35,173 nt of DNA from Planctomycetota bacterium (GTDB lineage Bacteria; Planctomycetota; UBA1135; UBA2386). A program made the position numbers and the translations under genes. The notes below the pieces were generated by a model that saw only the letters and a program-made list of their open reading frames with translations, did no database searches and was not told the origin of the DNA. Below, piece by piece: positions 13,121 through 24,141 of the stretch; the stretch's first letter is position 1, and each line of letters opens with the position of its first letter. The DNA lies in contig VGXW01000012.1 in NCBI GenBank assembly GCA_016873195.1, positions 1-35,173 on the forward strand, given 5' to 3'.

Positions 13121-13448
13121 GGCGCGGCAAGCCTAGCGACGAGGGTGTGCACGCAGAAGGCACTGCTCGGACACGAGCCGAGCGCCGCGTGCGGCGGGCC
13201 GGCGTCGTCGCCGCAACGCGCGCCCCCGGCAGTTCCACAGGCGGATCCGCCGGAGGACAGCGGGGGCCTTGCGTCGAAGTGCGTAGCCCTGGAGGCCGCG
13301 CGGGAGGTCCGGAGATCGCAGGTCGTGGCGGTGCGTCGCGCCTGCGGCCGGCGCGATTCAGAGGACGACGGGCGGGTTGTCAGTTCGTGCGAACCAAACT
13401 AGGTTGGCTCCCTCGTCGAACCTCGCCCCGTCACCCGGAGCCCATCCC

Positions 13449-15566
13449 ATGCGCCTCGCCACTCCCTGCCTGTCGGTGACCCTTGTGTTTGCCACCACGG
13501 CGCCGTCGCAGACCGCGATCGTCGTGCCCGATGGTCTCGCGACCGTGCCCGGCAACGCCAACAACTCCTTCCCCTGGTCGCGCAATGCGAGCAGCATGCG
13601 CATCCAGTTCATCTACGACGACTCCCACTTCACCGCGCAGGGCATGACGGGACCTGCCCTGATCACGCAGCTGCGCTGGCGGCCCTACTCGCCGACGACA
13701 ACCCCGGGAACCTGGGCGGGCGGTTCGTGGCCGAACGTGCGCATCGACCTGGCCACCGCCGCGACGAGCTGGTCGGCGCCCAGCGCCACGTTCGCCAACA
13801 ACCTCGGCGCGGACGCGATCACCGTGCACCAGGGCCCGGTGGTCGTGATCGGCGGCACCGTGCAACCGAACACGGTCGGCCCGTGGTACATCGGCATCCC
13901 GCTGGCCACGCCGTTCGTCTACAATCCGGCCACGGGCGACGACCTGCTGGTCGACATCCATCTGGACGGCACCGGCTGGACCGGCACGTCGCGCGCCGCC
14001 GACCACCAATGGACCGGCTCGATGGCGGCCCGCATCTACAACACGTCGGGCCTGACCGCGACCACCGGCTCGGTGGGGACCTCCTATGGCGCCGTCATGG
14101 AGGTCACGCACCAGCCGGCGGTCGGCGTGTTCTCCCGCTTCTCGGCGACGCCGCGCACGGGCCCCTCGCCGCTGCAGGTGCAGTTCGCGGACGCCAGCTT
14201 CACTTCCGATCCGAACGGCATCCTGGCCTGGGCCTGGGACGTCGACGGCGACAACGTCGTCGACTACACGGTGCAGAACCCGTCGCACACCTACACCAAC
14301 TGCGGCACCTACTCCGTGTCGCTGACGGTGATCGCCGCCAACGGCACGAACACGCTGGCCGTGTCGAACTTCATCGTCACCGACACGGTGACACCGTCGT
14401 TCGCCTGGAGCAATCTCGGCGCCAACGTCATCCAGTACACCGACACCTCGGCGCCGGTGCCGACGTCCTGGGACTGGGACCTCGACGGCGACGGCATCAC
14501 CGACTCGACGGCGCAGCACCCGGTCTGGGCCTACGCGCAGACCCAGTGCGTCGGCGCGAACGTCCGGCTCGCCGTGAGTCGCCTGTGCCGCGGCCCCTTC
14601 ACGACCTCGCAGCAGGTGGTCCTGGCGCCGAGTTCGGTCGCCTACATGACCGGCAGCACCAGCACCAGCAGCTCGAGCTGGATCGGCGGCCTGTTCGACG
14701 TTTCGGTGACCCATCCGGGCGGCATCAGCGTCTGCGGCGTGACGGTGCGGCCTGGCGGCCTCGTCGCCCCGATGAACGTCGCGGTCTACGTCGCGCCGGA
14801 CACCTACGTCGGCAAGGACACCAACGCATCGCTGTGGCGCCTCGTCGCCACCGCCACGGCGCTGCCGGCGGCGGCACCGGGCTCGATCGCGCTGAACCCG
14901 CCGTTCTACCTGCCGGCCGGCAACTTCGGCATGGCGGTCTACATCGGCCAGCCGGGCGGCGTCAGCACCAGCATGACCCACAACAGCGTGCCGACCACCG
15001 GCCATCCGGGCCCGATCAGCACCCCGGACGTGATCCTGTTCCCCAACCCGGCCGCCGCGCCGGGCATGATCCGCACCGGCCTGTTCGGCGGCGGCACGCT
15101 CAACCCGCGCATCTGGAACGGCACGCTGCACTACTCGGCGTGCGGCACGGGCGGCGACCCGGGCTTCGGGTTCTTCGGCGCCGGCTGCGCCGGCTCGCTG
15201 GGCATCACGAACCTGCGGCACGCCGGCCGTCCGCGGATCGGCAGCACGTTGACCGTGAACTACGACAACCTGCCGCTGGCGGCGGCCATCATCTTCATGG
15301 GCTTCAGCAACACGAACTCGCTGTTCGGCCCGCTGCCGCTCGACCTCGGCGTGTACGGCGCGCCGGGCTGCAGTGCCCGCGTCAGCACCGACGCGACGCT
15401 GTTCCTGCTCGGCGCCGGCAATGCCGCCGCGTGGAACTTCGGCATCCCGAACGTCGCGAACCTCGTCGGCGTGCTGATGTACCACCAGGCCCTCGTGCTC
15501 GATCCGGGCTTCAACACGTTCGGCGCGGTGATGTCGGACGCGGCGGGCCTGATCATCGGCAGCTGA
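13449..15566 (+). CDS. Secreted PKD-repeat protein with C-terminal beta-rich surface-type domain
   Basis: Signal-like N-terminus MRLATPCLSVTLVFATTAPSQ; PKD motif FSATPRTGPSPLQVQFADASFTSDPNGILAWAWDVDGDNVVDYTVQNPSHTYTNCGTYSVSLTV; second degenerate PKD (DWDLDGDGITDSTAQHPVWAY). Confidence 0.82.
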   Translation: MRLATPCLSVTLVFATTAPSQTAIVVPDGLATVPGNANNSFPWSRNASSMRIQFIYDDSHFTAQGMTGPALITQLRWRPYSPTTTPGTWAGGSWPNVRIDLATAATSWSAPSATFANNLGADAITVHQGPVVVIGGTVQPNTVGPWYIGIPLATPFVYNPATGDDLLVDIHLDGTGWTGTSRAADHQWTGSMAARIYNTSGLTATTGSVGTSYGAVMEVTHQPAVGVFSRFSATPRTGPSPLQVQFADASFTSDPNGILAWAWDVDGDNVVDYTVQNPSHTYTNCGTYSVSLTVIAANGTNTLAVSNFIVTDTVTPSFAWSNLGANVIQYTDTSAPVPTSWDWDLDGDGITDSTAQHPVWAYAQTQCVGANVRLAVSRLCRGPFTTSQQVVLAPSSVAYMTGSTSTSSSSWIGGLFDVSVTHPGGISVCGVTVRPGGLVAPMNVAVYVAPDTYVGKDTNASLWRLVATATALPAAAPGSIALNPPFYLPAGNFGMAVYIGQPGGVSTSMTHNSVPTTGHPGPISTPDVILFPNPAAAPGMIRTGLFGGGTLNPRIWNGTLHYSACGTGGDPGFGFFGAGCAGSLGITNLRHAGRPRIGSTLTVNYDNLPLAAAIIFMGFSNTNSLFGPLPLDLGVYGAPGCSARVSTDATLFLLGAGNAAAWNFGIPNVANLVGVLMYHQALVLDPGFNTFGAVMSDAAGLIIGS

Positions 15567-15575
15567 GATTGCCAC

Positions 15576-15590
15576 CGCCGCCGGGCGGCG
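15576..15590. terminator. Compact GC inverted repeat just after the PKD gene stop
   Basis: CGCCGCC-g-GGCGGCG 9 nt after the stop; no T-tract, so the terminator call is weak. Confidence 0.25.
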
Positions 15591-15919
15591 ACGATGGGCG
15601 TCACTCCCGAGTCGAGTGGAAACGCGGCTCGTCCCCATCCAGCAATCGTCGCGATGCGCCCCTCGTCGCCAGACCCGGCGCCCCCTGCGCGAACGGTCGG
15701 CTGCCGCGGCGCTGCGCCCGTTCGGCCGGGTCTGTGGCGAGGTCGTGCTGCGCGGCGCGGTCGGCCCGGGGACCGGCGTGGGCCCCAGCGCTCCGGTGGC
15801 TTTTCCCGCCGCGGCGTGGACCGCCCGCGGGGTCCAGCTACTGTCCTTCCGGGTTTCCACCTGCGCAGCAGGCGCAGCGTCGGGAGGACCCGCACCCGCG
15901 AGGCCCGGAGGTCGAGGAC

Positions 15920-16429
15920 ATGACGACTGCGCACCAGCGACGGATGCTCTTCGAGTTGGCGGACTCGCTGCTGGAGTTCACGGATCTCGGTCGCTCGGGC
16001 TACCGAGGTGCCGCGGCGCGCCTGCGGCAGGACAAGATCCTCGCCCGAGCCGAGGCGGACCTCGGCGAACTGCCGCCCGCGGCGCGCCGGGCGATCGAGG
16101 ACTGTGTGGATCCGGCGGCGGCGACCATGCTCGACAGGTCCATCGCGGGACTGGGCGCTGCCAGTGGCGAGGAGACGCAGGCCGGGCTGCGCGCGGTGCT
16201 CACGGCGCTGGCGGCTCGTCTGCTCGCCGCCGACCGCCGCGAGCAGGCCCAGCGCGCGCAGACCGCTTTGGCGTCGCTGCACGGGGCTCGCCCGGTGCCC
16301 GCGCCGCGCGCGAGCCGGGATCCGCAGGCCGGGAAGCCGCCGCGGCGTGCCGCCCCGACGAGGAAGCCGGGCCGCGCGACCGTTTCGGGTGGTGAACCTG
16401 GCCAGTCCTCCCAGGAGGCTGGGGCGTAG
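15920..16429 (+). CDS. Hypothetical helical protein with basic Pro/Ala-rich tail
   Basis: ATG 15920: MTTAHQRRMLFELADSLLEFTDLGRSGYRGAAARLRQDKILARAEADLGELPPAARRAIEDCVD...; no family recognised. Overlaps antisense with the convergent nitrilase ORF. Confidence 0.5.
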   Translation: MTTAHQRRMLFELADSLLEFTDLGRSGYRGAAARLRQDKILARAEADLGELPPAARRAIEDCVDPAAATMLDRSIAGLGAASGEETQAGLRAVLTALAARLLAADRREQAQRAQTALASLHGARPVPAPRASRDPQAGKPPRRAAPTRKPGRATVSGGEPGQSSQEAGA

Positions 16430-18218
16430 CCTTGGCCGCGGCCCCTCCGGGCGGCGGCCCGTCTGGGCGCGGCACCATGACCGTCAGCTCCCGCACCTTC
16501 GGGTGGATCTGGACGACCTGCTCGAGCTTCAGGTGCTTCGACCCCTGGTACTCGCGGCCGTCGGCGAGACAGGCGACGCCGGCGACGTGGCGCAGTCGCA
16601 GCAGCACGCCGCGCGCCTCCGGCGCGATCTCGATCTCGCGGAAGGTGCCCAGCGGGTCCTTCCACAGCGCGATCGTGCGCGACGGCGGGTGGCCGTCGGC
16701 GTGGCTGCGCCGCACCATGCCGAGCGACGTCAAGGTCAGCACCGACGAACCCGGATCGTCTGCGAGCACGCACGCGTAGTGACCCGGCCACCGGCTCTTC
16801 AACTGTGGTCCGTCCAGCAGCAGCGCCAGCACGAGCGAGGGGGCCAGCGTCCGCAGCAGGTCGCCGATCGGCTCCTGCCGGGCGAGGTCCTCGCAGATCA
16901 GGGGTGCGATCACGAGGCTGTTGGGCGCCGCTCCGATCTCCAACACGAACTGGCGGCGGCGGCTGATGTCGATGCGCTCCCACCACGTGCGCCGCTGGCT
17001 CAGCGCCGAACCGAGCTGGTACTGCGCGATCTGCGAGGCGTCGAGGTACCAGCGGTGGTGCTTGCACTGCTGTCCCCAGCCGATGCCCGGCGAGGAATCA
17101 CTGGCGTCGTCGTCGTGGGGAAAGCAGCTGAAGGCCGCGAGGTTCCGGTCGTGGCCTTCCGGGGACGACCCGGGCGCCTGCACGCCGGCGACGATCAGGG
17201 TAACCCCGTGGGCACCGGCAACCTCCCGCAGGATCCGCACCTGAGATTCGGCGACCGCCAGCTCCGGTAGCACGACGATCTCGACCGGGTCGCCGTCCGC
17301 CTGCGCCGCGTCCAGCAACTCGTCGAGCGATTCTCGCAGTCCGTCGTCGCCGAGGCGCGCCTTCGGCTCATAGCTGAAGTAGCCGAAGCGGCCGGGGTTC
17401 ATGGCTGGTCGATCTCCGTGCGGCACGGCGCGGAAGTCGGAGGCCGCCACCGTCTCCGGCCAGGGCAGGAGCAGGATGTTGACGCGTTCGCCCACCGGCT
17501 GATTCGTGACCGGCAGCCGGCGCCAATCGACTTCGACGAGCGGATTGCAGACCGCCAGGTGACGCGAAAGGCTCCTCACCGTCACGCCGGTGGTTCGCGA
17601 CACGGACTTCGGCAGCACGCGGCAGTTCGCGGCGGGGATGCGCGCAAGAGTAGCTGCTTTCAGCATCAGTCCGTGGTAGCGCTCCACGACGTGGATCGCG
17701 GGCGAAGGCGAATCGCCTGCGATCCGGCAGGCGGGGGCGTCGAGGTAGGCGCCGGCCTCGTCTGCCACGGCATTGAGCGTCGCGATCACGGAGAGGTCGT
17801 CCCAGTGCTCGACCTTGCCGAGTTCCAGCACCTCGAGATCGCGGAGCTTGGCGAAGTGCTCGATCAGTTCGTCCAGCCGTGGCGGCAGCCTGCCCGTCTT
17901 GCGGAGGTCGAAGGCGGCAAGATCCCGGAGCGACGTGTTCTCCGCGTCCAGCAGCGTACCGATCTCGCGCAGCCACTCCGCGGCCAACGTGCGGATGCCT
18001 GCGGCCCAGTCGCCGGTCGGTGGCCAGCGCTTCGTCGGCGGCACGGACACCAGCAGGCGGTATGCGTCCGAGGCGCGCAGGATGGACGTCGTCAGCGCGA
18101 ACAGGTCGGGTGGCCACGACGCGAACCAGTACTCGTCGACACCGGCGCGGAGCCGCTCCCGCGCTTCACGGATGCTCAGGGTCACTGGCGCTTTCCTTCG
18201 CGCCGGGGCACGGCGCAT
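16200..18218 (-). CDS. Carbon-nitrogen hydrolase (nitrilase-fold) protein with long uncharacterised N-terminal region
   Basis: Nitrilase triad motifs: Glu in IVVLPELAVAES, Lys in QQCKHHRWYLDASQ, Cys in SLVIAPLICEDLAR. About 290 aa N-terminal region starting DEYWFASWPPDLFALTTSILRASDAYRLLVSVPPTKRWPP. Alternative GTG start at 18185. The C-terminal ~75 aa is low-complexity. Confidence 0.72.
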   Translation of the reverse strand: MRRAPARRKAPVTLSIREARERLRAGVDEYWFASWPPDLFALTTSILRASDAYRLLVSVPPTKRWPPTGDWAAGIRTLAAEWLREIGTLLDAENTSLRDLAAFDLRKTGRLPPRLDELIEHFAKLRDLEVLELGKVEHWDDLSVIATLNAVADEAGAYLDAPACRIAGDSPSPAIHVVERYHGLMLKAATLARIPAANCRVLPKSVSRTTGVTVRSLSRHLAVCNPLVEVDWRRLPVTNQPVGERVNILLLPWPETVAASDFRAVPHGDRPAMNPGRFGYFSYEPKARLGDDGLRESLDELLDAAQADGDPVEIVVLPELAVAESQVRILREVAGAHGVTLIVAGVQAPGSSPEGHDRNLAAFSCFPHDDDASDSSPGIGWGQQCKHHRWYLDASQIAQYQLGSALSQRRTWWERIDISRRRQFVLEIGAAPNSLVIAPLICEDLARQEPIGDLLRTLAPSLVLALLLDGPQLKSRWPGHYACVLADDPGSSVLTLTSLGMVRRSHADGHPPSRTIALWKDPLGTFREIEIAPEARGVLLRLRHVAGVACLADGREYQGSKHLKLEQVVQIHPKVRELTVMVPRPDGPPPGGAAAKATPQPPGRTGQVHHPKRSRGPASSSGRHAAAASRPADPGSRAARAPGEPRAATPKRSARAGPARGGRRRADEPPAP

Positions 18219-18388
18219 CGGGTTCTCGCTCGCTCGCGAGGATGCGGACCGGGGCTGTGCCAGTCAAGCGAGGAGTCGCTACTCGCGCGCGCCGAGCGGG
18301 GAACGGCTGCAACTGCTGCGGGCGGTCGCTTGGCCCGTCCGCGCGGCGACCATCGCTCGGCGCGAGGTCGGGCGACTATCGTCTGGGC

Positions 18389-19720
18389 ATGCTCGGCCGC
18401 TCCCTGCTCGTCGTCGCATCGCTCCTCCCCGCGCTCCAACCCGCGCCCGCGCAGCAACCCTTCGACTTCGCGGCTGCCTCGCGCGACGTGCCCAGACCAC
18501 GCGAACTCTGGCCGATCGTGCGGCAGCACCGCGTGCCGCTCGGGTTCGAGGTCCGGTCGGACGAGACCGTGCCGAGCGACACCGACCCGCGGCTCGAGCT
18601 GCGCAAGGTCCGCGCGCACTTCTGGAGCCAGGAACTCGAAGGCAAGAGGTGGGGCCACGAGTGCGTGATCTTCACGCCGGCCGGCGCGGCCGCCGCCGCC
18701 AACGCGGCCGGCGCGCGCCGCGGCAAGGTCGTCGTGATCGGCTCGCCGGGCGGCAGCGCCTTCCCCGTGCACGTCGACAAGTACGCCGAACCGATCGCCG
18801 CGCGCACCGGCTATCCGACGATGGTGCTCGTCAATCCCGGCACCTACCCCGACGGCAGCGACATCGAGGCCGACATCGGGGTGCTCGACCGGCTGCGCAA
18901 GGCGACCGGCGCGAACCACTACAACATGAACTGCCAGCTCGCGGTCGTCTACGTGCAGGCGATGGACGCGCTGCAGCAGTTCCTCGGCCTCGACGAACTG
19001 CACGCGGTCGTCGGCGGGCACAGCAAACGCGGGCGCAGCGCGACGGTCGCCGCGGCGTTCGACCCGCGCGTCGCGAGCGCCGTGATCATGGGCAACGAGG
19101 GCGTCCACCGCACCGACACGGTCGAGTGGCATCTGTCGTTCCACCACGCCTTCTTCCAGGACCAGGTCCCGGACCTGCCCGTCTTCTACCTCGGCGCGAC
19201 CAACGAGGACGGCTACCGGATGTTCAACGTCAACATCCTGCAGGAACGGCTGCGGCGCCCGATGACGATCGAGCTGATCCCGAACTACTGCCACTCGAAC
19301 TACAGCGAGATCCAGTTCATGGACTTCCTGATGTGGGTCGCGCACGTGTTCGACGGCCGGCCGCTGACGCGCATCGTCGGCGTCGCGCACGAACGGCTCG
19401 CCGACCGGTCACTGTTCCGCGCGCGGCTCGAGGGCGAGGCCAAGGTGCAGGTCGTGAAGGCCTGGTACGTCTACAGCGACGATCCGGCGTGGCGCGACCT
19501 GATGTGGTACCACCTGATCATGGACCGGGTCGGCGACCACTACGAGGCCGTGCTGCCGGGCAAGATCCCCGACGCCTTCCTGATCGAGGTCGGCGACACG
19601 GCGCTCGGCTACCCGGGCTACGTGTCGAGCCTGCCGCAGAAGCTGACCGACGCAGAGGTGGTCGAGCGCAGGTCGCGCGGTTCGCGGCCGCGGCTCTGGG
19701 AGCCGCCCGCGCGCAAGTGA
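18389..19720 (+). CDS. PhoPQ-activated pathogenicity-related (PqaA-like) alpha/beta hydrolase, secreted
   Basis: Signal-like MLGRSLLVVASLLPALQPAPAQ; LDELHAVVGGHSKRGRSATVAAAFDPRVASAVIMGNEGVHRTD; VFYLGATNEDGYRMFNVNILQERL. Confidence 0.72.
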   Translation: MLGRSLLVVASLLPALQPAPAQQPFDFAAASRDVPRPRELWPIVRQHRVPLGFEVRSDETVPSDTDPRLELRKVRAHFWSQELEGKRWGHECVIFTPAGAAAAANAAGARRGKVVVIGSPGGSAFPVHVDKYAEPIAARTGYPTMVLVNPGTYPDGSDIEADIGVLDRLRKATGANHYNMNCQLAVVYVQAMDALQQFLGLDELHAVVGGHSKRGRSATVAAAFDPRVASAVIMGNEGVHRTDTVEWHLSFHHAFFQDQVPDLPVFYLGATNEDGYRMFNVNILQERLRRPMTIELIPNYCHSNYSEIQFMDFLMWVAHVFDGRPLTRIVGVAHERLADRSLFRARLEGEAKVQVVKAWYVYSDDPAWRDLMWYHLIMDRVGDHYEAVLPGKIPDAFLIEVGDTALGYPGYVSSLPQKLTDAEVVERRSRGSRPRLWEPPARK

Positions 19721-19758
19721 TCCGTGCGCCGGCGGCGCGGCCGGCCGACAATCGGGGC

Positions 19759-21675
19759 ATGGCACGCACCTCGCCCGGTCCGTTCTCGCTGCTCGCCGCC
19801 GCCTGTCTCGGCGCCGCCGCCGCGATCCCCGCGCAGGACCTTGCCGACATCACGCGGCCTATCGACGCGCGGCGCATGCGCGCGTCCAGCGGCCTGTTCG
19901 ACCCCGAGTCGAACGACGACGCGCTGCGCATCGCGCCCGGCGAGACCGCGACGCTCGCCGAACTGCGCGGGCCCGGCGAGATCCGCCACATGTGGTTCAC
20001 GATCGGCGCCGAACACCGCCGCTATCCGCGCTCGCTCGTGCTGCGCATCCATTGGGACGGCGCCGAGGTGCCGTCGGTCGAGACGCCGATCGGCGACTTC
20101 TTCGCCGCCGGCAACGGCATGCGCGCGACGGTCAGTTCGCTGCCGATCGAGGTCACGAGCTACGGCCGCGCGATGAACTCCTACTGGCGCATGCCGTTCG
20201 GCAAGAGCGCCAGGATCACGATCACGAACGAGTCCAGCGGCCGCGTCAGCTCGTGTTACTACTACATCGACTGGCTGCAGCAGGACCGCGCGCCGGCCGA
20301 CCTGATGTACTTCCACGCGCGCTACCGGCAGGAGTTCCCGGTGCCCGAGTTCACGCCCTACGTGGTCGCCGACCTGCGCGGCCGCGGCCACTACGTGGGC
20401 ACCGTGCTGTCGATCCAGAGCTGCAACGGCGAGTGGCTCGGCGAATCCGACGACCGCTTCTACATCGACGGCGAAGCGACGCCGTCGCTGGTCGGCACCG
20501 GCATGGAGGACTACCTGACCGACGCCTGGAACCTGCGCCTGTTCAGCAATCTGCGCGCCGGCGTGACGATCTACGAGCCGAAGGCGATGGACCAGCGCAT
20601 GACCGCCTACCACTGGCACATCGCCGCGCCGATCACGTTCCGCGAGTCGCTGCGCCTGGAGATCGAGCGGCGCAGCTTCATGACGATGAAGGACCCGGCG
20701 AGCGGCGAGTCGAAGACCTTCGACTTCAAGTACCGGCCCGATCTGCTGTCCTCGGTCGCGTTCTGGTACGCGACCGCGCCGGCACCGCGCTTCTGGGACT
20801 TCCCGCCGGTCGAGGCGCGGCTGAATCCGGAGGTGATGGTGGAGACGACGCAGATGGTCGAACGCATCCGCCGCGCCGACGGCGTGGTGGTGGAGGCGCG
20901 CAGCAACCGCGCGATGGGCGCGACCAGCGGCCCGTCGCGCAAGAAGATGACCTTCGTCGGCAACCGCGGGCCCGGCGGCTGGATCGAGGTGCCGTTCACT
21001 TTGCCCGAGGGTGGGGTCTGGTCGATCTCGGTGTTCCAGTCGCTGTTCTGGCACTACGGCATGTGGCGCGTCTCGCTGCGCGGCCCGGGCATCGACGAGG
21101 TGCTCGACGGCGCGATGGACTTCTTCGTCGACCGCCACCACAACCGCGGCGACCAACCCGAGAACTTCCTCTACGGCACGTGGTTCGACAACAAGTGCGG
21201 CGTGCGCCGGCTCGCCGCGGGCGACTACGTGATGCGCTTCGAGTGCGTGGGCGCCAATCCGCTGTCGCGCCGCCGCGGCACCACGGAGCCGGGCTACGAC
21301 ATGGCCCTCGACGGCATCTCGCTGCGGCGGCTGCCGTGGCAGGGGGACATGTGGGAGTGGCTGCAGGGCTACCTGGCCCGCGAACAGGCGCGCGAGTCGG
21401 CGATGGTGGCGGAGGCCAGACGTTTCGTAACGATCCTCGCCGCCGCGGTCGAGGAGTTCCGGCGGCGGCAAGGGCGATTGCCCAGGGAACTCGGCGAACT
21501 GCTCGGCGCCGACCTGCAGTCGCTGCCCGAGGGCATGCGCACGCGTTTGCCGCGGGATCCCTGGGGCCAGGAGTACGGTTATGCGGCGCCCGGCCGGCAC
21601 AACGTCGAGGGCGCCGACGTCTGGTCGGTGCACGGCAACTCGCGCCGGCCGAGCGGCTGGATCGGCAACTGGTAG
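19759..21675 (+). CDS. DUF2961 (GH172-type) protein fused to C-terminal GspG-like type II secretion pseudopilin domain
   Basis: DUF2961 core: SSGLFDPESNDDALRIAPGETATLAELRGPGEIRHMWFTIG...GDFFAAGNGM...SYWRMPFGKSARITITNESS...GTGMEDYLTDAWN. C-terminus: EARRFVTILAAAVEEFRRRQGRLPRELGELL...LPRDPWGQEYGYAAPGRHNVEGADVWSVHGNSRRPSGWIGNW, matching the GspG C-terminal pattern. Confidence 0.85.
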   Translation: MARTSPGPFSLLAAACLGAAAAIPAQDLADITRPIDARRMRASSGLFDPESNDDALRIAPGETATLAELRGPGEIRHMWFTIGAEHRRYPRSLVLRIHWDGAEVPSVETPIGDFFAAGNGMRATVSSLPIEVTSYGRAMNSYWRMPFGKSARITITNESSGRVSSCYYYIDWLQQDRAPADLMYFHARYRQEFPVPEFTPYVVADLRGRGHYVGTVLSIQSCNGEWLGESDDRFYIDGEATPSLVGTGMEDYLTDAWNLRLFSNLRAGVTIYEPKAMDQRMTAYHWHIAAPITFRESLRLEIERRSFMTMKDPASGESKTFDFKYRPDLLSSVAFWYATAPAPRFWDFPPVEARLNPEVMVETTQMVERIRRADGVVVEARSNRAMGATSGPSRKKMTFVGNRGPGGWIEVPFTLPEGGVWSISVFQSLFWHYGMWRVSLRGPGIDEVLDGAMDFFVDRHHNRGDQPENFLYGTWFDNKCGVRRLAAGDYVMRFECVGANPLSRRRGTTEPGYDMALDGISLRRLPWQGDMWEWLQGYLAREQARESAMVAEARRFVTILAAAVEEFRRRQGRLPRELGELLGADLQSLPEGMRTRLPRDPWGQEYGYAAPGRHNVEGADVWSVHGNSRRPSGWIGNW

Positions 21676-22739: not shown

Positions 22740-23972
22740 TCATCGCGCGTCCCGTTTCCCGAGCGCGTTCGTGATGTCCGCCAGTCCGACGCCGAGCACC
22801 GCGCGCGCCACCGGATCGAGCGCTGCCTCCGGCCCGGTCAGGTGCACCGTGCGGTGGAGGTGCGAGAGGCTCGCTCCCGGCGCCAGGGCGGCCGCGGGAG
22901 ACGACGATTCGAGTTCGTAGAAGGGGCCCAGCGGCTTCGCGCCCGGCGCCGGCGGGCCGTCGTTGTAGCTGTTGGCCGCGTCGCCGGCGAACGGGTCGTC
23001 CTGCAGCTTCCACAGCGAGTTCACGTAGTCGGTCGCGCCCGCGGGCTGGGTGAACTGCACGATGGTCAGCACGCGAGCGGCGGCGTCGTAGCTGCCGAGC
23101 ACGCCCGTGCTGCGGCGCGGGCCGATGCCGATCTTGCTGCGGTACTTGCCGTCCCCGCTGAAGTAGATCACGTCGTCGCGCACCGACAGCCGCTCGGGCG
23201 GCACCTCGCCGAAGTAGTCGGCCGTCACCTTCCTGCCGAGCTCGGCGTCCGCTCCCGCGCGGATCGGCACGACGACGGTGGTCGCCGGCGAGGGGTTGAA
23301 CATGCCGAGGATCCAGATGGAGAGCAGCCCGGTCTCCTTGCGCCACGGCTCCTTGCCCGCGTTGGTGATCCGGTTGTCCGATTCGTAGGCGACCAGCGAC
23401 ACGCCCGCCGCCGGCGCCGCGCCCAGCGCCTTCCAGATCGCCGCGGCCTCGAGCAGGCGCACCTCGCGGTCGACCTCGACGTCGAACTTCGTGCCCGAGT
23501 AGTTCGTCAACTCGAAGCGCGCGGCGAAGCGCGCGGCGCTGCGCGACCGGTTCGCGACCCGGAACGGCAGCGTGTCGATCGGGGCCGGCGTCTGCCAGTC
23601 GGCCAGCTCGAACTTCGCGCCCTTCGCGAAGAAGATCGAGAACTGGCCGCCTTCCGGCCCCAGCCAGAAACGATCCTCCCCGCCGAACGGGTTCATGTGC
23701 GGCAGGAGCTTCCGCGAGGCGATCAGCTCGCGGTTGATCCAGCCGAAGCTGGCGCCGGTGTCGCCGCCCGCCGTGCTGGTCACGACGCGGCCCTGCCACG
23801 CGGGCGCGAGCGCCACGCGGGCCGCACCGGACTCGTCGCTCAGCACGATGACGTCGGTGTACGGCTTCAGGAACGCGACGTCGTCGGCGAAGCTCGGCGT
23901 GCGGGCGCCCTGCGCGAGAAGGGTGGGTGCGGTCATGCAGATCAGCGCGGCAGTGAGGGGGATTCGGGTCAT
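22740..23972 (-). CDS. DUF6786-like secreted protein
   Basis: MTRIPLTAALICMTAPTLLAQ signal-like; SFADDVAFLKPYTDVIVLSDESGAARVALAPAWQGRVVTSTAGGDTGASFGWINRELIAS...HMNPFGGEDRFWLGPEGGQFSIFFAKGAKFELADWQTPAPID. Confidence 0.65.
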   Translation of the reverse strand: MTRIPLTAALICMTAPTLLAQGARTPSFADDVAFLKPYTDVIVLSDESGAARVALAPAWQGRVVTSTAGGDTGASFGWINRELIASRKLLPHMNPFGGEDRFWLGPEGGQFSIFFAKGAKFELADWQTPAPIDTLPFRVANRSRSAARFAARFELTNYSGTKFDVEVDREVRLLEAAAIWKALGAAPAAGVSLVAYESDNRITNAGKEPWRKETGLLSIWILGMFNPSPATTVVVPIRAGADAELGRKVTADYFGEVPPERLSVRDDVIYFSGDGKYRSKIGIGPRRSTGVLGSYDAAARVLTIVQFTQPAGATDYVNSLWKLQDDPFAGDAANSYNDGPPAPGAKPLGPFYELESSSPAAALAPGASLSHLHRTVHLTGPEAALDPVARAVLGVGLADITNALGKRDAR

Positions 23973-24038
23973 GGCGTCGGCACCGTGCAGGCGGAAGCCT
24001 ACCCCTCCGGATCCTGATCTTGCACGGCGGGATCGTGC

Positions 24039-24066
24039 CCGCACCCGGTGCCGGCACCGGGTGCGG
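24039..24066. repeat. 28-nt perfect palindrome
   Basis: CCGCACCCGGTGCC|GGCACCGGGTGCGG, in the intergenic region between the APC permease stop and the DUF6786 start (both minus strand). Confidence 0.8.
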
Positions 24067-24141
24067 TCCGGCAGCGGCCGGCTGCAACGAGAGGACCTCC
24101 GATCCCGGACCACGTCCGGAGCCAGACGATGATGCCGCCGC

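Follow-up and report, generated by a model that had tools for sequence, protein, structure and literature searches.

Enzymes of the nitrilase superfamily are mostly metabolic and, to our knowledge, nitrilases are almost unknown as effectors of immunity. The described systems nearest to the protein reported here, DRT1 (UG1, class 3 UG/Abi; PDB ID: 9YFD) and UG5, join such a domain to a reverse transcriptase (RT). The DRT1 nitrilase is an effector of abortive infection, with the C-terminal tail of the protein serving as a lid over the active site; nitrilase immune effectors were reported to lack precedent, and the DRT1 substrate was left open (PMC13275509). The window analysed here, the whole stretch of 35,173 nucleotides from a Planctomycetota bacterium, encodes a protein that, like DRT1, exhibits a triad-intact nitrilase C-terminal to another domain; however, where DRT1 has an RT and helical repeats, the window protein and the relatives examined have no RT and an unrelated N-terminal domain. 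The family differs likewise from the UG5 RT-nitrilase (PDLC03780), which carries an RT (loci L115 and L117) and belongs to a separate clade, whilst the RTasNitrilase model (PDLC03804) matches the window protein in part, with no RT lying beside the window gene. With the CN_hydrolase enzymes (Nit2, amidases, beta-ureidopropionase, Lnt) the family has the fold and the Glu-Lys-Cys triad in common, but it shows no Pfam match and falls outside the ordinary clade. This RT-free combination of helical domain and nitrilase is apparently undescribed, and we give an even chance to the reading that it is a defence protein with a nitrilase effector and a helical partner as regulator.

The gene lies on the minus strand at 16200–18218 (672 aa). 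This frame contains zero internal stops and is a genuine coding ORF, with a minus-strand coding signal (GC by codon position, third-position excess) running from approximately 18200 down to approximately 16430. The start is likely GTG 18185 rather than ATG 18218, since the former fits the starts of relatives better (near residue 12); it is preceded by AAGGAAAG, and a putative Shine-Dalgarno-like AGGAAAG lies before it (18191–18197, minus strand). At the other end, residues ~597–672 (16200–16430, minus strand) form an unconserved, low-complexity tail that has lost the minus-frame GC3 signal, is missing from relatives and is antisense to a convergent plus-strand ORF at 15920–16429. Below 16430 the GC codon-position signal moves to the plus-strand frame and thus, given also the absence of the tail from relatives, the conserved protein comprises approximately 585 residues. 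The convergent ORF encodes a helical protein of 169 aa with its own GC3 coding signal and matched no known family. According to Pfam, the neighbours of the window copy are housekeeping genes; a Pfam scan of part of the window ORFs revealed no recognised defence gene and no RT family. Also in the window are a DUF2961 protein followed by an in-frame T2SSG (pseudopilin)-like segment (17773–21675, plus strand) and a strong match to DUF6786 (22740–24113, minus strand).

In order to model the window protein, an alignment of 74 relatives was used as input for AlphaFold2, which gave a confident structure (pLDDT 89.8, pTM 0.90). Residues ~15–190 (17649–18176, minus strand) are predicted to form an all-helical N-terminal domain, which is compact and helical also when modelled alone (pLDDT 91.3) and in which WPPD.FA, W82, L148 and D153 are conserved in the alignment of relatives. 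Neither the PDB (best E 0.84) nor the viral predicted structures of BFVD (best E 1.2) yielded a credible fold match for this domain, and Pfam gave none for the N-terminal region, so that the model points to a new fold. An earlier note on this DNA had set aside about 290 N-terminal residues as unassignable: the lack of Pfam, PDB and viral fold matches bears this out, but the nitrilase begins at about residue 245 and the extra region is therefore closer to 240 aa. Between the two domains lies a conserved motif of strands (V201-L-P-K204...G211...R215-S; residues 200–235; 17514–17621, minus strand) reading VLPK.RTP..G.T.RSLSH, with K204 present in 99% and G211 in 100% of the 74 relatives.

The nitrilase-superfamily domain spans residues ~245–571 (16506–17486, minus strand), for which Foldseek matched amidases, yeast Nit2 and beta-ureidopropionase at E~1e-8. 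The triad that the earlier note had read as intact is indeed so: Glu319 (VVLPELAV; 17262–17264), Lys386 (KHHRW in CKHHRWYL; 17061–17063) and Cys442 (ICEDLA in LICEDLAR; 16893–16895), all encoded on the minus strand, are each 100% retained in the 74–82 aligned relatives and share alignment columns with the E/K/C residues of DRT1, UG5 and ordinary nitrilases. Fold and triad together predict a catalytically intact nitrilase. A further family signature, D469-G-P-Q...R-W...D-P-G490 (16749–16814, minus strand), is nearly invariant in relatives. The protein has no accepted match in Pfam or NCBIfam, and PF00795 (CN_hydrolase) finds no match at E≤10 in it or in 11 relatives. Likewise, none of the RT models of Pfam and NCBIfam reaches E≤10 and the AlphaFold model contains no RT part, in agreement with the absence of an RT claimed previously; no RT was found in any family member examined. 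The sole library match under E=0.001 is to the PADLOC RTasNitrilase model (E=1.1e-4), covering 55 residues (295–349) and model positions 164–213 of 397, and the RT_UG5-nitrilase model weakly matches 4 of the 11 relatives.

In order to place the domain, we compared the family with the DRT1 of Vibrio halioticoli (L100, a full DRT1 with 1366 bits to PADLOC Drt1a), plasmid DRT1s, the UG5-type proteins of L115, L117, L122 and L123, and 33 ordinary nitrilases. In profile comparison UG5 comes nearest to the nitrilase domain (hhalign score 71, E 3.6e-9), and depth-matched hhalign gave 71.0 for UG5, 62.3 for DRT1 and a maximum of 59.6 over 25 ordinary subsets: by sequence profile the family would thus be slightly closer to UG5/DRT1 than to ordinary nitrilases, with a narrow margin for DRT1. 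An apparent profile exclusion of ordinary nitrilases (prob 9.9 with a 3-sequence alignment) was dropped, as 33 sequences give 95.9. The maximum likelihood tree separates three groups, namely the family (SH-aLRT 100), DRT1+UG5 (90) and the ordinary nitrilases (89); a branch with support 89 sets all 33 of the latter apart from the family, the stem of the family is very long (2.08 changes per column), and the tree is unrooted, which makes the sister relations of the three groups undecidable. The earlier suggestion that the domain is nearer to RT-linked than to housekeeping nitrilases thus holds for the depth-matched scores and the weak RTasNitrilase/UG5 matches, but on the tree the family occupies its own branch.

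These data also bear on the possibility that the protein derives from a DRT (class 3 UG/Abi) nitrilase by loss of the RT and gain of a new N-terminal module, and is still served by an RT or nucleic acid in trans. The weak profile matches to RT-linked nitrilases and the depth-matched preference for UG5 and DRT1 would fit such a history, as would the presence elsewhere in the same genomes of a DRT1 in V. halioticoli (L100, with the family member at L054) and of a UG5-type DRT in Aeromonas dhakensis (L115, with the family member at L035). Set against this are the separate long branch, the lack of an RT near the window gene and the fact that, of 42 carrier genomes, just 13 matched the Drt1a model, for the most part within its RT portion; we consider this explanation very unlikely. 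The earlier note had suggested an RT-less relative of such nitrilases; descent from DRT1 is not borne out, given the long branch and an N-terminus unlike those of DRT1 and UG5. Assignment of the family itself as a DRT was rejected, as it has no RT and its nitrilase lies outside the DRT1+UG5 group, as was the N-terminal domain as a remnant of an RT or of the DRT1 helical repeats, since profile comparison detected no resemblance to DRT1 or UG5. It is nevertheless plausible that the family works like a DRT nitrilase. Amongst the comparison proteins, the UG5-type RT-nitrilase at L122:103-3312, found on E. coli plasmids, is annotated as 'hypothetical protein' and is followed by a 156-aa helical ORF.

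Relatives are approximately 27–40% identical to the window protein over most of its length and were found in at least 181 contigs when 84,980 species genomes were scanned; they were recovered by an alignment-based scan, a single-sequence scan having found none. Read from 80 loci among these contigs, the family occurs in Pseudomonadota, Acidobacteriota, Actinomycetota, Myxococcota, Planctomycetota, Bacteroidota, Deinococcota and other phyla. In the order to which the window belongs, a full member is present in 2 of 151 genomes including its own, and the E. coli genomes searched held none. Relatives are carried on 12 plasmids and in 4 viral contigs; none was found in 50,697 phage records. Broken copies, as would be expected of a dispensable accessory gene, occur at L056, L087 and L094 and in M. 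extorquens, where the copy is split by an insertion element and sits in an island with TIR, SIR2 and VPA1262-type genes. The PADLOC release of 2023 contains no full-length model for the family.

We then examined the company of the relatives by comparing, in 16 genomes, the proteins within 6 kb of a family member (127) with those of a region of the same size at another place in that genome (137), using genes called by a custom caller of modest recall. At E≤1e-10, 279 PADLOC families were matched near the family gene (a count raised by the redundancy of the Type I restriction models) as opposed to 19 in the controls (16 regions each); the comparison is conservative, as some control regions lie on contigs with RT matches. 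Strong matches near family genes included Type I restriction-modification (RM), Zorya, DRT7/UG10, SAVED, Type II methylase, McrBC and a CBASS cyclase with TRIP13 and endonuclease effector, whilst the controls matched AbiEii, DpdE and mainly generic signalling. Type I RM was present at 6 of the 94 loci against 0 of 16 controls and in Pseudoalteromonas its genes abut the family gene. In the prophage at L092, the gene and its partner (see below) are encoded on the opposite strand from the phage genes, which include portal, terminase, replication O and repressor: replication O borders them at one end, portal, terminase and head genes follow farther out at the other, and they thus occupy a prophage cargo position. 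The association with defence genes that the earlier note had anticipated is therefore seen in the relatives, above matched controls, and the counter-reading it offered, of a domain grouping with ordinary amidases and showing no defence enrichment, agrees with neither the tree nor the neighbourhood comparison.

That counter-reading has a broader form, in which the protein is a metabolic amidase or nitrilase, acting for example on an unusual amide or a secondary metabolite, spread by horizontal transfer. The predominantly metabolic character of the superfamily, the amidases and Nit2 as nearest folds and the housekeeping genes flanking the window copy speak for it; however, metabolic neighbours are not conserved across loci, the distribution is very patchy, the domain falls outside the 33 ordinary nitrilases on the tree and L092 displays the gene as prophage cargo, all of which makes this explanation quite unlikely. 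We favour a defence role: the family is probably anti-phage since its genes tend to occur on plasmids, within prophages and next to anti-phage genes.

A small helical ORF begins at, or overlaps, the nitrilase stop codon in many relatives, with four-base overlaps between the two genes in Vibrio-type loci. A profile seeded with 17 such separate downstream ORFs was run on 23,681 ORFs (all loci, controls and the window): its best two non-seed matches, at L063 and L032, are weak (E 0.01–0.02) and both occupy the exact downstream position. Relatives from Actinomycetota, Bacteroidota and some Acidobacteriota and Myxococcota carry instead C-terminal extensions of approximately 80–300 aa, and when a profile was built from the extensions alone, its top matches beyond the ORFs of the family itself were the separate downstream ORFs at L029 and L026 (E~1e-4). 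With a combined profile, trained on many of the same sequences as it counts, the partner domain was present at 40 of the 94 loci, as a separate downstream ORF in 19 and as a C-terminal fusion in 21; by profile it was detected neither at the remaining loci, which include the alphaproteobacterial clade, nor in the window. At L014 the partner gene runs convergently to the nitrilase gene and overlaps its 3' end, much as ORF 15920–16429 does in the window. In spite of this position the latter shows no significant similarity to the partner, and it is by position that we name it a candidate. An upstream helical ORF at L098 was tested as a partner homologue and showed no homology. Some DRT1 loci also exhibit a small overlapping downstream gene (drt1b-like; L119:6864-7370 in Vibrio tubiashii, L120:6837-7289 in Pseudoalteromonas shioyasakiensis), which overlaps DRT1 by four bases and encodes a membrane helix; on testing, these genes bore no sequence relation to the family partner. 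In Bradyrhizobium members (L057, L070, L091) the gene is closely followed by a different conserved ORF, of ~60 aa (..YEKLREKLATI..), which may serve as an alternative partner. Across the loci, no further neighbour family was seen to recur.

A pair of overlapping genes could also be a toxin-antitoxin-like module, with the nitrilase as toxin and the helical protein, in trans or fused, as neutraliser, maintaining plasmids and islands rather than defending against phage. The four-base overlaps in Vibrio-type loci and the carriage on plasmids and in prophage agree with this; but fusion to its toxin is unusual for an antitoxin and is seen here at 21 loci, a separate neutraliser is not found in all members (19 separate, 21 fused, none detected in the rest) and defence genes adjoin relatives, and hence we regard such a module as unlikely. 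For the preferred defence role, the invariant triad across very divergent relatives and the patchy, mobile spread (plasmids, prophage, rarity within the order) count in favour, together with the defence genes near relatives, the linked partner domain and the precedent of DRT1, whilst the housekeeping surroundings of the window copy, the detection of the partner by profile in just 40 of 94 loci and the lack of a copy in the 50,697 phage records count against.

In such a role, the protein would be held inactive as an oligomer until the N-terminal domain, the partner or both sense a cue of infection. The partner, at the C-terminal edge, may gate the enzyme by analogy to the C-terminal tail of DRT1, and the released nitrilase would cleave a C-N bond in an essential small molecule (an amide or a nucleotide-linked amine) or a protein amide, so that growth would stop before the phage matures (abortive infection). 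For the window copy, the partner would be either missing or supplied by the convergent ORF 15920–16429. That the family constitutes an undescribed anti-phage class, in which a nitrilase acts without RT or nucleic-acid synthesis under the control of a helical sensor domain and partner, we judge to fall slightly short of evenly balanced. An RT-free family with the DRT1-type fold would make it possible to study the effector chemistry separately from DNA synthesis, and suggests that immunity may have drawn on nitrilases on more than one occasion.

Amongst the remaining loci, a deltaproteobacterial MAG (L028:9875-12634 and 13271-16144) contains two tandem family copies with C-terminal extensions of ~290 aa. 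At L116:14929-19197 very long open frames are present on both strands (1422 aa on the minus strand, 1356 aa on the plus strand), of which one alone can be the gene.
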